Assembly (NCBI GenBank): GCA_944363595.1
Contig: CALVUN010000005.1
Coordinates: 1 to 46,312, forward strand
Origin: an uncultured Bacilli bacterium
GTDB taxonomy: Bacteria > Bacillota_I > Bacilli_A > RF39 > UBA660
DNA length: 46,312 nt
Reading direction: 5' to 3'
Shown in pieces: positions 24,218 through 46,312 of this stretch; within the stretch, counting starts at the first letter, position 1, and every line of letters begins with the position of its first letter. Under the pieces are notes generated by a model, which was not told where the DNA came from, searched no databases, and was given only the letters and a program-made list of their open reading frames with translations. The position numbers and the translations under genes were made by a program.

Positions 24218-24277
24218 AAAACTACAAAGATTTAAGTTTAGTATATAACTAAGCTTGTTTTTTTGTAGTTTTTTTAT
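24218..24277 (+). terminator. Large two-part hairpin with T run (terminator or attenuator)
   Basis: AAACTACAAA (24218-24227) pairs with TTTGTAGTTT (24262-24271), enclosing a second 9-bp stem AAGTTTAGT (24234-24242) with ACTAAGCTT (24248-24256), followed by T. It stands between the G10 tract and the surface-protein ribosome binding site, where it could attenuate that gene. Confidence 0.65.
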
Positions 24278-24299
24278 ATGGAAAGGAAGGAAGTTAAGT

Positions 24300-25862
24300 A
24301 TGAAATATCTAAAAAAATATTACTTATTAATATTACTAATAATATCATTAATTGGCGTATCAGTATATGGAACTTATGCTATGTTTACATCTAGTGTAGA
24401 AACTAATATGGTAAATATAGATACAAGTATGACATATAAATTTAAGATTAATGGTACTCAGGAATTAAAAGTAAGTGCAGGTTCTAAGCTTAGATTTAAT
24501 GCTGTAGTAGAAAATGATATGGATGGTAAAATATCTTATGGTATGTATTATAAAATGATTAGTCCTAGTACATTACCTAGTGGTGTCATAATAGCCCAAG
24601 TATCAGATGATTTAACTATGTTAGCTAAAGGGCAATTAGAAAAAGGAGCTCAAACGACAGTACCAATGGTAATAAAGAATACATCAGATAGTGAGATAAC
24701 TGTAGAAATAGGTGTAAGAACAGGATATGCAACAGATAGTCAAGGAGTAGATGATATTATCTATAATGAAGGAGAAATACCTATAACTAGTTTTCAAACC
24801 AGTGAAGAGGCGGGGAATGATAGCTGTACCGCAACAGTGGAATGTACAACAGATTGTTCAAGTAAACAAGTTGATGGAAAATGGATGGAAGTATGTTATT
24901 GTTATACGGGAAATGAGGGAAGTCCACCACCAATTAGTGGAACAGAATTAGTAGAACAAATAAAATCACAAGTTAATCCTGGAACACCTGATTTTAGCCA
25001 GACGGCCACAACAGATGAAGGAATATATAGTGCGCAAGATAACTATGGAACAAGTTATTATTTTAGAGGAGCCGTAACAAATAACTATGTTAAATTTGCG
25101 GGATATTACTGGCGAATAATTCGAATAAATGGAGATGGAACAATAAGATTAATTTATGATGGAACAAGTGCGCATGCAAATGGCGAAGGTAGTAGTGATA
25201 GACAAATAGGTAGAAGTGTATATAATAATACCGATAGAGATAACGCATATGTAGGATATATGTATGGACAAACAGGAGCTAGTAGTTATAATAACACTCA
25301 TGCAAATACAAATAATAGTACAATAAAAACGACAGTAGATAATTGGTATAAAACAAACATAGTAGATGCAGGTTATAGTGATAAAGTAGCAGATGTAATC
25401 TATTGTAATGATCGAAGTATGAAAAGTGGAACAGGCTATGGAACGACGGAAACATATTATGGTGCTTATCAAAGAATAGAAGATGGAAACAATCCAGTAC
25501 TAACATGTACCAATCAAAATGATAGATTTACGGTAGAAGATACAAGTAAAGGGAATGGAGCATTAACATATCCAGTAGGCTTAATAACAATAGATGAAGT
25601 AGAGATGGCGGGTGTAAATTCGGCAACTACAAGTAGTAATGGAAAATATTATTATTTATACACAGGTAATGGGTATTGGACAATGAGCCCGTCTGGTTTA
25701 TACCGTGGTTACGCGCTCGGGTTTTACGTGCAATATACTAGTCGCATCAGCTACGACAGTGTGGACTACACGTTCGGTGTGCGGCCCGTGCTTTCTCTCA
25801 AATCTGACGTAACATTAATGGGTTCTGGAACCATGAATGACCCTTGGACCGTACAAAATTAA
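24300..25862 (+). CDS. Surface protein with N-terminal TasA/camelysin-like region and variable C-terminal lectin-like domain
   Basis: A 520-residue exported protein. The start at 24300 follows GGAAGGAAG. The signal peptide (KYLKKYYLLILLIISLIGVS) leads into GTYAMFTSSVETN, a pattern seen at the start of TasA/camelysin-like proteins. Then comes a beta-rich region to about 180, a cysteine cluster (CTATVECTTDCSSK, CYCYTG), and from about 235 a conserved domain ([64 protein letters not shown]). The last 60 codons contain GYWTMSP, a hypervariable GC-rich stretch, and [14 protein letters not shown]. This layout matches C-type-lectin-like domains that end in GVRP..L, several of which are targets of diversity-generating retroelements. 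It shares its last 280 residues with the protein ending at 45233. Confidence 0.7.
   Translation: MKYLKKYYLLILLIISLIGVSVYGTYAMFTSSVETNMVNIDTSMTYKFKINGTQELKVSAGSKLRFNAVVENDMDGKISYGMYYKMISPSTLPSGVIIAQVSDDLTMLAKGQLEKGAQTTVPMVIKNTSDSEITVEIGVRTGYATDSQGVDDIIYNEGEIPITSFQTSEEAGNDSCTATVECTTDCSSKQVDGKWMEVCYCYTGNEGSPPPISGTELVEQIKSQVNPGTPDFSQTATTDEGIYSAQDNYGTSYYFRGAVTNNYVKFAGYYWRIIRINGDGTIRLIYDGTSAHANGEGSSDRQIGRSVYNNTDRDNAYVGYMYGQTGASSYNNTHANTNNSTIKTTVDNWYKTNIVDAGYSDKVADVIYCNDRSMKSGTGYGTTETYYGAYQRIEDGNNPVLTCTNQNDRFTVEDTSKGNGALTYPVGLITIDEVEMAGVNSATTSSNGKYYYLYTGNGYWTMSPSGLYRGYALGFYVQYTSRISYDSVDYTFGVRPVLSLKSDVTLMGSGTMNDPWTVQN
25685..25813 (+). repeat. GC-rich hypervariable cassette, copy A
   Basis: 5' flank GAGCCCGTCT (25685-25694), an 81-nt core (25695-25775), then GGT and a 35-nt 3' flank (25779-25813, beginning GTGCGGCCCGTGC). 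By hand count the core is about 49% GC in a region otherwise near 30%. The flanks match copy B (45282-45410) at 10 of 10 and 34 of 35 positions while the cores agree at only about 37 of 81. Most core codons end in C or T. Confidence 0.8.
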
Positions 25863-25906: not shown

Positions 25907-26049
25907 TGTAATTAATTCCTTGTACTAAGTGACAAAGTACATAAATAAGGAAATCGCTAAATAAGCGTTATCATAAAAAAGAGCACTTAAAGTGAAATAA
26001 GGTGGCACCGCGGATATTAATTCGTCCTTATAGCTTAAGTGTTTTTTTA
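25907..26049 (+). promoter_or_regulatory. Very short T-box riboswitch leader of aspS
   Basis: The T-box sequence AAGGTGGCACCGCGG is at 25999-26013, followed by CGTCCTTAT and a terminator (CACTTAA at 25984-25990 with TTAAGTG at 26035-26041, then T). The 5' half is a single small hairpin: TTCCT (25916-25920) with AGGAA (25948-25952) and TGTACT (25921-25926) with AGTACA (25936-25941), terminal loop AAGTGACAA and internal bulge TAAATA. A second hairpin CGCT/AGCG follows. There is no room for the usual 80-100 nt Stem I. The terminal loop contains GAC (Asp codon, 25931-25933); the bulge contains AAT (Asn). Both would suit this synthetase. Confidence 0.8.
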
Positions 26050-26072
26050 TATAAAAAGAAAGGAAGTAAATT

Positions 26073-27386
26073 ATGAAAAAAACATACATAAATGATTTAA
26101 AAAACCATGGTAATGAAGAAGTAGTAGTAAAAGGATTTGTCGATAAAATAAGAGATTTACAATATGTCCAATTTATTATTTTAAGAGATATAACAGGAAA
26201 AGTACAATTAACAGTAGAAAAAAATGAAGAAAATAAAGAATTGACAGAACTATTTACTAATTTAACTCTAGAAAGTACCATCAGTGCTACTTGTAAAGTA
26301 TTAATTAACGAAAAAGTAAAATTAGGGGGCTTAGAATTAATACCAAGTAAAGTAGAAGTAACAAGTAAATCTTTACCAGAATTACCATTTGACATCAAAA
26401 GTAAAGACAATGCTTTAAGAGAAACAAGATTAGATTATCGTTTCTTAGATCTAAGAAGAGAAGAAAATCAACTACTATTTCAATGTGAAACATATCTAGA
26501 ACATAGTATGCGAGAATTTTGTTTAAATAATAATTTCATTGAAATACATAGTCCCAAAATTTCTGAGGGAACTGCCGAAGGAGGCGCTGAAGTATTCAAA
26601 TTAGATTATTTCGGTAAACAAGCAAGTTTATCACAATCACCCCAATTTTATAAACAAATGGCCATTGCCTCAGGATTTGATAAAGTATTTGAAATAGGAA
26701 CTGTTTTTCGTGCTGAAAATTCCCATACATCATATCATGCAACCGAAATAAATATGGTCGATATCGAAATAGGGGATATAGACAGTGTCGAAGATGTAAT
26801 GGATTTCCAAGAAGCATGGTTAAAATATAGTTTTAACAAGTTAAAAGAAAAATATGGTGAAAAAATAAAAAAACACTTTAACGTTGAAATAAGTAATGTC
26901 GATATTAATTTTCCTCGTATAACATTTAAAGAAGCTAAAGAAATACTAAAAGAAAAATATCACTATATAGGTAGTGCTAAAGAAGACTTCGAACGAAAAG
27001 AAGAAGAATTACTAGGTAAATATGCTAAAGAAAAATATCATAGTGATTTCATCTTTGTAACCAATTACCCTTATAGTGCAAGACCATTTTATAGTATGAA
27101 AAATAATGCTGGTACAACTGAAACCTATGACTTATTATATAAAGGAATAGAGATCACCAGTGGAGCCCAAAGAGAGCATCGTTATGATATTCTAACTAAA
27201 CAAATCAAAGAAAAAGGTATTGACCCTCAAACACTAGATTTTTATATTGAATTTTTCAAATATGGATGTCCTCCTCACGGTGGTTTTGGATTTGGTATGG
27301 CTAGACTATTAATGCGTATTTTTGAAATAGATAACATAAGAGAAGCAACATTTATCTACCGTGGTCCAACAAGATTAAAACCATAA
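26073..27386 (+). CDS. aspS: Aspartyl-tRNA synthetase, archaeal/eukaryotic type (probably non-discriminating Asp/Asn)
   Basis: A 437-residue class IIb synthetase. An N-terminal OB-fold anticodon domain (VVVKGFVDKIRDLQYVQFII) is followed by motif 1 (EIHSPKISEGTAEGGAEVF), YFGKQASLSQSPQFYKQMA, motif 2 (EIGTVFRAENSHTSYHATE) and motif 3 (GGFGFGMARLLMRIF). At about 440 residues without the large GAD insertion, it is the archaeal-type enzyme found in some Firmicutes, which often charges both tRNA-Asp and tRNA-Asn and relies on GatCAB. It is more like AspRS than AsnRS by the QSPQFYKQ block. Controlled by the compact T-box leader upstream. Confidence 0.88.
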   Translation: MKKTYINDLKNHGNEEVVVKGFVDKIRDLQYVQFIILRDITGKVQLTVEKNEENKELTELFTNLTLESTISATCKVLINEKVKLGGLELIPSKVEVTSKSLPELPFDIKSKDNALRETRLDYRFLDLRREENQLLFQCETYLEHSMREFCLNNNFIEIHSPKISEGTAEGGAEVFKLDYFGKQASLSQSPQFYKQMAIASGFDKVFEIGTVFRAENSHTSYHATEINMVDIEIGDIDSVEDVMDFQEAWLKYSFNKLKEKYGEKIKKHFNVEISNVDINFPRITFKEAKEILKEKYHYIGSAKEDFERKEEELLGKYAKEKYHSDFIFVTNYPYSARPFYSMKNNAGTTETYDLLYKGIEITSGAQREHRYDILTKQIKEKGIDPQTLDFYIEFFKYGCPPHGGFGFGMARLLMRIFEIDNIREATFIYRGPTRLKP

Positions 27387-45232: not shown

Positions 45233-46312
45233 TTAATCAACCACAACATAAGGACTTATCATAGTTCCGTCACCTGACAACGTTACGTCAGATTTGAGAG
45301 AAAGCACGGGTCGCACGCCGTAAGAATAGTCCACGCGGCCAGTACCGACGCCACCACCGCCAATCACGTTCCACACACGCTCAGGGTCTTCAGCGAAATA
45401 AGACGGGCTCAAACTCCAGTAATCATATCCATAGTACAAATAATATTCATAATTCTCAGTAACAGCAGAGCCTCCTGCTGCAATAATTTCATCTAGTATT
45501 ATTAGTCCTACTGGATAAGTTAATGCACCATTTCCTAATGTAGTATCATTTACAGTAAATGCATCATTTTTTTGACTACATGTCATTTTTATTGGATTAA
45601 CCTCTAATGGATCCCAAGTTGTTGAATCAGCTATTCTACTAAATGATTGATAAGCCGTTGTATTATAACCAAATCCATAATTACCATTTCCACCAATTGT
45701 CTGAGACATTACTTCATCAATTGATCGATCATTACAGTAAATTACATCAGCTACCTTATCACTGTATCCTTTATCAACAATCATTTCTTTATACCAACTA
45801 TCAATACCAGCCTTTATTGTACTATCATTGATATTTGCATGAGTATCTTCATAATTATCTGAACCAGGTGTTCCATACATATAACCTACATATGCATTAT
45901 CTCCATTATATTCATTAAATGCAGTATAACCTATTTCTCTATCTTCACTACTTTCCCCATTTTCATGAGGTTCTGTTCCATCATAGATCATTCTAATGCT
46001 TCCATCACCATTTATTCTTATTATTCTCCAGTAGTAATTTGCAAATTTTACATAATTATTTTCTACTGCTCCTCTAAAATAATAAGTTGTGCCATAATCA
46101 TCTTCTGTTTCCCAGATACCTTCATCTGTATTTGCAATTGCTGTTACACTACTCTTTTCACCATTACTGGTTAATCCTAACTTAAATAGTGTTTTTTCAC
46201 TTGCCGTAGGTTCTTCATCTGTTGCATTTGCATTTAATCTAAAATTAAAGTTTTGATTATACATTGTATTAGGATTATCCATATTACCATCTATCCATAT
46301 ATATAATGTATA
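45233..46312 (-). CDS. Surface protein with variable C-terminal lectin-like domain (5' truncated by window)
   Basis: The frame stays open to the window edge; residues before the first ATG read [15 protein letters not shown], so the true start is outside. About 360 residues are visible. They parallel the protein ending at 25862: [55 protein letters not shown] and [12 protein letters not shown]. The final part is YWSLSPS, 27 variable residues and [14 protein letters not shown]. The upstream visible segment [12 protein letters not shown] resembles the end of TasA-like domains. It is encoded in the opposite direction to its paralogue across dif. GC-rich codons appear only in the last 45 or so codons. 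Confidence 0.7.
45282..45410 (-). repeat. GC-rich hypervariable cassette, copy B
   Basis: Minus-strand 5' flank GAGCCCGTCT (45401-45410), an 81-nt core (45320-45400) with about 57% GC by hand count, then GGC and the 35-nt 3' flank (45282-45316, beginning GTGCGACCCGTGC). Length of core and flanks is identical to copy A (25685-25813), with no insertion or deletion between them, although the core bases are largely different. Confidence 0.8.

Follow-up and report, generated by a model that had tools for sequence, protein, structure and literature searches.

Several described diversity-generating retroelements (DGRs) share parts of the organization reported here. In Treponema denticola one DGR serves several scattered surface-protein targets of the TvpA family, as is also the case in our genome; its template and its reverse transcriptase (RT) are both in the core locus, whereas here one template is found on a contig of 14 kb that has no RT match and the RT-linked template slot is damaged (PMC4891356). 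One remote variable region (VR) of T. denticola fits the template of another isolate better than that of its own strain (PMC4891356). The DGR of Bordetella phage BPP-1 (bRT/Avd/Mtd; PMC3240598, PMC12875486) resembles the present system in its RT, in a short 5′ homology and in a spacer RNA after the template repeat (TR); its Avd partner and its target-side 3′ element beyond the TR homology have putative counterparts here. It has been reconstituted in a heterologous host (PMC12875486). At least 8 bp of 5′ homology are enough in BPP-1 (PMC3240598). It differs in having a single local target and no multiple or detached templates (PMC3240598, PMC12875486).

The DGR targets of gut phages, namely tentaclins and the targets of Faecalibacterium prophages (PMC10743442, PMC11792537), carry their variable region in a DUF6273 domain, which the domain found here resembles, and in the Faecalibacterium prophages it is placed at the DUF6273 C-terminus, as in the first gene described below. 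Those targets are phage proteins, whereas ours are dispersed bacterial surface proteins. Remote variable proteins of cyanobacteria and the DGRs of Thiohalocapsa PB-PSB1 (PMC7517822, PMC10907252) show dispersed targets, trans diversification and degenerate loci lacking parts, and multi-TR/VR DGRs have more than one template and several targets (PMC6642488). In the accessible portions of the first two papers we found no arrayed or scattered template modules with a common scaffold, and those of the third do not mention RT-detached templates with a conserved RNA scaffold. Large DGR surveys seek a VR adjoining the RT, and the survey of Roux et al. 2021 states that its approach would miss remote targets (PMC8144416).

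Here we describe a cassette that was read from sequence alone and that led to a genome with three DGRs, scattered targets and a template on a contig lacking an RT match. The window, by which we mean the whole analyzed stretch of 46,312 nt, is contig C5 of genome G000, a metagenome-assembled genome (MAG) of an uncultured Bacilli bacterium (1.25 Mb, 83 contigs, 91.6 % complete). We hold it highly probable that the cassette is a remote VR of a DGR in which an RT with an Avd-like partner, the enzyme of contig C51 being the best candidate, draws on several partly detached templates with the same flanks and serves several targets.

A common 3′ cassette in two surface-protein genes

Genes A and B of the window (Table 1) share a 129-nt 3′ architecture around hypervariable cores. 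Gene A codes for an N-terminal hydrophobic segment, MKYLKKYYLLILLIISLIGVSVYG, and its N-terminal scaffold is that of a target gene on contig C6, which belongs to the DGR of contig C8. As the preliminary description had reported, the 5′ flank GAGCCCGTCT is identical in both copies and the 35-nt 3′ flank occurs twice in the window (25779-25813, plus strand; 45282-45316, minus strand), with 34/35 identity; shuffled sequence gave no match to this flank in 100 shuffles. Recomputation returned the same figure as the earlier hand count between the equal-length cores, 37 identical positions out of 81. The jump in GC content from about 30 to about 50 % is likewise seen in 100-nt windows, with 0.45-0.54 over the cassette and about 0.30-0.39 upstream, core A having 49 % (40/81), and the count of core A codons ending in C or T agrees (20/27). 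The interval of 129 nt was also right, but its listed parts (10, 81 and 35 nt) add up to 126 because the Gly codon of GVRP, GGT or GGC, sits between the core and the flank as they were noted.

Table 1. Features of the window that bear on the two cassettes
Feature	Position	Strand	Basis or remark
Target gene A, secreted or surface protein ending in variable C-type-lectin-like domain (predicted)	24300..25862	+	ORF 24255-25862, first ATG 24300
DUF6273-like C-terminal domain of A, variable region at C-terminus	24984..25859	+	AlphaFold2, Foldseek, weak Pfam match
5′ homology, copy A, GAGCCCGTCT	25685..25694	+	Common to VRs and templates
Hypervariable core, copy A (variable repeat), 81 nt	25695..25775	+	Comparison with copy B and G001-inferred template
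3′ end of TR/VR homology, copy A, GGTGTGCGGCCC	25776..25787	+	Templates have GGCGTGCGGCC(C)
Target-side 3′ element beyond template homology, copy A, codes VLSLKSD	25788..25813	+	Synonymous-site conservation; IMH-like acceptor by analogy
Target gene B, 5′ end lost at contig end	45233..46312	-	ORF
5′ homology, copy B, GAGCCCGTCT	45401..45410	-	Identical to copy A
Hypervariable core, copy B, 81 nt	45320..45400	-	Comparison with C19 template
3′ end of TR/VR homology, copy B, GGCGTGCGACC	45309..45319	-	Flank-site search
Target-side 3′ element, copy B	45282..45308	-	Flank match and codon comparison

With the preceding AT, GAGCCCGTCT makes up 12 nt common to VRs and templates, and both A and B measure 102 nt from GAGCCCGT to GTGCG.CC. 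The 35-nt 3′ flank has turned out to be composite: about the first 11-12 nt, counted from just before the flank into it, are common to the templates, and the remainder is a target-side element. Codon identity in this element is 0.94 among paralogues, many of them close, against 0.72 and 0.57 in comparison blocks, and by analogy with known systems it may act as an IMH-like acceptor. Unlike BPP-1 (PMC3240598, PMC12875486), the G000 copies show by eye no conserved DNA hairpin downstream of the VR, GGTTCTGGAACC being present in copy A alone. Rfam gave no match around the 3′ end of gene A, and the viral contigs searched for the flank gave none either and no sign of phage origin.

Between gene A and an aminoacyl-tRNA-synthetase-like frame (26073-27386), window positions 25925-26060 resemble by eye a T-box leader, with AGGTGGCACCGCGG followed by a T run; Rfam at gathering threshold returned no match for this stretch.

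Modeling of the C-terminus for a C-type lectin fold had been proposed. AlphaFold2 predicted the C-terminal domain of A (292 residues) with pLDDT 90.4 and pTM 0.90 from a 27-sequence alignment; with 11 close homologues only, pLDDT was 34. Foldseek viral matches of this confident model are mainly DUF6273 proteins, and the Pfam DUF6273 match of gene A is weak (E=0.0043). At E<0.001 the only PDB match is 9qa6. The PDB holds no direct C-type lectin match to the model, and the lectin label therefore goes via DUF6273, which has been modeled as a C-type lectin domain with the hypervariable hairpin at the surface (PMC10743442). On this basis the domain is predicted to be C-type-lectin-like.

Reverse transcriptases, templates and targets elsewhere in the genome

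The window was said to contain neither an RT nor a template, and indeed all three RVT_1 matches of G000 and both template sites bearing the flanks are on other contigs. The proposed search for an RT of the DGR clade found these three RVT_1 genes on C26, C51 and C8. Their frames are open, each adjoins an Avd-like gene and, judging by their matches, all three are DGR-type. The C51 RT has as its top PDB match 8ub7 (E=3.5e-29), a chain that we take to be the Bordetella phage enzyme, followed by a group II RT (3.3e-10), and carries the motif KGLPIGNMTSQ; phage tblastn matches of the RT include ANMV-1, crAss-like and Bordetella phages. The Avd-like genes match NCBIfam DivGenRetAVD with E-values of 3.7e-8 (C8), 8.1e-8 (C26) and 1.1e-5 (C51), all below the curated cut-off, and for Pfam bAvd the C8 gene scores 40.2 bits (cut-off 40) and the C26 gene below the cut-off. 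The C26 locus is a complete DGR, and within its repeat every TR/VR difference falls at an A. The C8 template fits the VR on C6, the two differing in length by 3 nt and at a few non-A positions; the C6 protein carries the same N-terminal scaffold as gene A, so that remote targeting is seen in this family of proteins independently of the window.

Two further observations concern these loci. The C51 RT (C51:3583-5373; L009:1258-3048) has a C-terminal extension with a weak match to MutS domain I (24.2 bits, cut-off 20.6), and short frames adjoining Avd in the C8 and C26 DGRs resemble this extension. Contig breaks fall within a ACAACAACAC(AGC) tandem repeat at G000 C26:7130-7174, at C41:1-75 of the sister species G001 and at the end of G001 C19 (L011, L152, L151); the repeat adjoins accessory or target reading frames and probably causes assembly breaks near the DGRs of both genomes.

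More copies of the flank, which the preliminary description suggested looking for, are present on C44, C35 and C22 in relatives of gene A, giving at least five target genes with common flanks in G000 (A, B, C44, C35, C22). The whole assembly contains seven GGNGTGCGNCC sites, all of them VRs (5) or template sites (2), and the distance GAGCCCGTNT...GTGCGNCC is exactly 102 nt in A, B, C35, C44 and C19:7096-7197. The C22 copy has a shortened core, and the protein terminates there. Separately, C51:3056-3104 and C22:757-809 (L012, L016) have 34-nt cores that are identical over 56 nt with the flanks. A defective template may have been written into the C22 gene with no change at adenines, copying may have run the other way, or the assembly may be at fault.

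An adenine-aware scan of the RT contigs with both window copies was empty at the initial threshold; the C26 and C51 template leads emerged once the threshold was lowered and the other VRs were used. The template slot linked to the C51 RT keeps the VR flanks around a core of 34 nt that is out of frame, and with such a core it is no possible source of these VRs. C19:7096-7197 is a non-coding, adenine-rich TR of 102 nt with flanks identical to those of the VRs, which begins AATTTCAATGGTTCTAACGCTAACGTGTGG... and has many AAC/AAT between the VR flanks. Its contig (14.3 kb) carries none of the three RVT_1 matches of G000. The 26 nt upstream of it are identical to the template slot adjoining the C51 RT, and the 160 nt downstream, corresponding to the RNA scaffold, are ~80 % identical to that slot.

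Mismatches to the C19 template were counted separately at template A (n=31) and at other positions (n=50). They concentrate at A in B (24/31 against 14/50, one-sided p=1.5e-5), C44 (23/31 against 9/50, p=5.9e-7) and C35 (21/31 against 15/50, p=9e-4), with the poorest fit in A (19/31 against 20/50, p=0.05; all one-sided). As an exact parent, C19 fits no VR of G000. The proposed search for a template differing from the core only at adenines has yielded a same-flank, adenine-rich template. For A and B, 8-20 non-A differences separate them from every available or inferred template, so that none of these is their exact parent. The assembly is fragmented and 91.6 % complete, so the matching template may simply be unassembled. 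The predicted DGR target is thus accompanied elsewhere in G000 by DGR-type RTs, Avd-like genes, a detached template of identical flanks, an adenine bias and multiple further targets.

These data bear on two explanations without a DGR. Surface proteins often diverge fast, and the paralogues might have diverged in the ordinary way, under diversifying selection and without any dedicated mutator. The cores, however, are free of indels, equal in length and only 37/81 identical beside identical flanks, third codon positions are conserved inside the core, and a non-coding adenine-rich template has the same flanks. Both this template and the adenine-only TR/VR pair of C26 in the same genome contradict this account, to which we assign a negligible probability. 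Cassette shuffling without a retroelement would have cores swapped by homologous recombination among paralogues or with silent copies, in the manner of vlsE or pilin systems. Flanks common to several paralogues are what it would expect, and a relative, G065, does have ~12 short VR cassettes outside long frames near a full-length target. The store of silent cassettes that had been named as an alternative is nevertheless absent from the G000 assembly, where the target-domain frame is open up to the VR in 5/5 copies and silent fragments number 0. With differences placed at template-adenine columns, and with an adenine-rich non-coding copy and DGR RTs in the genome, shuffling is very improbable and a DGR-written cassette is preferred.

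Template versions and template modules in related genomes

Among 193 genomes searched, the flank pair occurs outside G000 only in G001, with nine VRs. Seven of these are of equal length and have column entropies of 0.94, 0.95 and 0.25 by codon position. From the G001 VRs alone a template was inferred by a rule that assigns A to variable columns. Against it, mismatches of A number 22/36 at A and 8/44 elsewhere (p=8.7e-5) and those of C35 24/36 and 3/44 (p=1.1e-8); non-A mismatches are 15/44 for B and 10/44 for C44. Because the rule itself sets A at variable columns, this test shows common variable sites more than adenine, and support for adenine as the mutable base comes from the observed templates. 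Counting non-A mismatches only, B and C44 are at least as close to the C19 version (14 and 9 of 50) as to the G001 version (15 and 10 of 44); A and C35 are clearly closer to the latter (8 and 3 of 44) than to C19 (20 and 15 of 50). This split points to two or more template versions that share one set of flanks, and A and B, which fit different versions, agree with the earlier view that the two copies had separate templates. No assembled template for this VR family was found in G001; a hit on its contig C41 was rejected as unrelated to the family. A target gene at G001 C12:1-1410 (L154) has one in-frame TAG, downstream of which the end of the domain and the VR are otherwise intact.

Around relatives of the C51 RT, 21 of 40 loci contain an A-specific TR/VR pair within the RT locus, and a mutable-base control on the plus strand of 20 loci gave A 12, G 2, C 0 and T 0. 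Four tandem template modules precede a single DGR RT at L064:260-1732 and three at L045:230-1386, with the same flanks and different cores, which is the kind of arrangement needed for two window copies having one flank set and two parents.

In many loci, sequence immediately 5′ of the template could pair with sequence 53-127 nt beyond it in a helix of 10-13 bp enclosing the template, with arms GGGATATGCT/AGTATATTCC in C19, GGGTAGATTT/AAGTCTATCC in C8 and GGGTAGTTTA/TAAACTATCC in C26. Its pattern is GGGnUA.../...UAnUCC, the 3′ arm coming after a GGAAACAAG-like motif. Arms pair better within their own locus than across loci (p=3e-7, for 16 tabulated loci that were chosen because they pair). By energy folding the template RNA showed no stability above expectation (z 0.42 and 1.06), and RNAalifold on the spacer alignment returned 0 consensus pairs, so the argument for the helix is its recurrence across loci. 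The C19 and C51 scaffold copies both retain it. In BPP-1 the RT-Avd complex is recruited by the spacer that follows the TR (PMC12875486), so the kept scaffold suggests that the detached template may be in use.

A further possibility, that A and B were formerly DGR targets and are now frozen, differs from the explanation we prefer only in present activity. The RT-linked C51 template, with its out-of-frame core of 34 nt, and the failure of C19 to be the exact parent of any G000 VR argue for such fossil targets. On the other side, the RT frames are open, the frames of A and B have been kept open, both scaffold copies retain the enclosing helix, and in a MAG of this completeness (91.6 %) a matching template may be unassembled. 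We regard frozen targets as unlikely, though deserving real weight.

In G065, which belongs to another genus of the same family, a sequence model of the spacer located six template modules on five contigs, and the two RTs are on contigs other than these. An adenine-rich template is kept in 5/6 modules. Pooled VR/TR differences are 102/203 at A and 33/567 elsewhere (p=4e-41). A 113-nt VR on C20 of this genome fits the 113-nt template on its C35 (16/25 at A, 2/88 elsewhere) and does not fit a 110-nt template 400 nt away. Four G065 contigs, C20, C35, C10 and C14 (L182, L185, L187, L186), carry ~12 VR cassettes of ~205 bp outside long frames, with a common sharp 5′ boundary TTTGCCACCGG... and interspersed with stand-alone template modules; one full-length target gene, of 698 aa, lies beside short cassettes. 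Most VRs of G065 are in such short cassettes, which may represent a silent bank that the DGR diversifies, or possibly functionless gene fragments. We tentatively propose, at somewhat less than even confidence, that the DGR is split in this family, with stand-alone, dispersed, multicopy templates carrying the scaffold and serving a distant RT in trans for many targets, and that the short cassettes of G065 are a silent, DGR-diversified library around one full-length gene, which could feed the expressed gene by recombination.

Proposed mechanism and significance

In the explanation that we favor, a DGR RT with its Avd-like partner, the best candidate being that of C51, would copy template-repeat RNA and put random bases opposite template adenines. 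The C51 enzyme would reverse-transcribe template RNA from more than one locus, with several same-flank templates, partly detached from the RT, supplying the targets. The cDNA would replace the stretch between the 12-nt 5′ homology and GGYGTGCGGCC in scattered surface-protein genes, probably pinned at one end by this 12-nt homology and at the other by GGYGTGCGGCC together with the target-side element. Rewriting would hit NNC/NNT codons near the C-terminus of the DUF6273/C-type-lectin-like domain, and its outcome would be new loops on a surface lectin-like domain. On this view detached templates would be used in trans, diversification would be ongoing and the variable domain may have a ligand-binding role.

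The mechanism is known, and there are precedents for remote targets (PMC4891356, PMC7517822, PMC10907252) and for several templates (PMC6642488). The dispersed multi-template organization looks like a variant of it. Dispersed template modules and silent cassettes had no precedent in the literature searched, which is weak evidence as most subscription journals lie outside that literature.

Scattered and arrayed templates provide a natural experiment on which portions of the RNA a template requires in order to be used. If detached templates work in trans, both targets and templates are undercounted in DGR catalogues. One enzyme could then diversify a whole family of surface proteins in these small-genome uncultured Bacilli.
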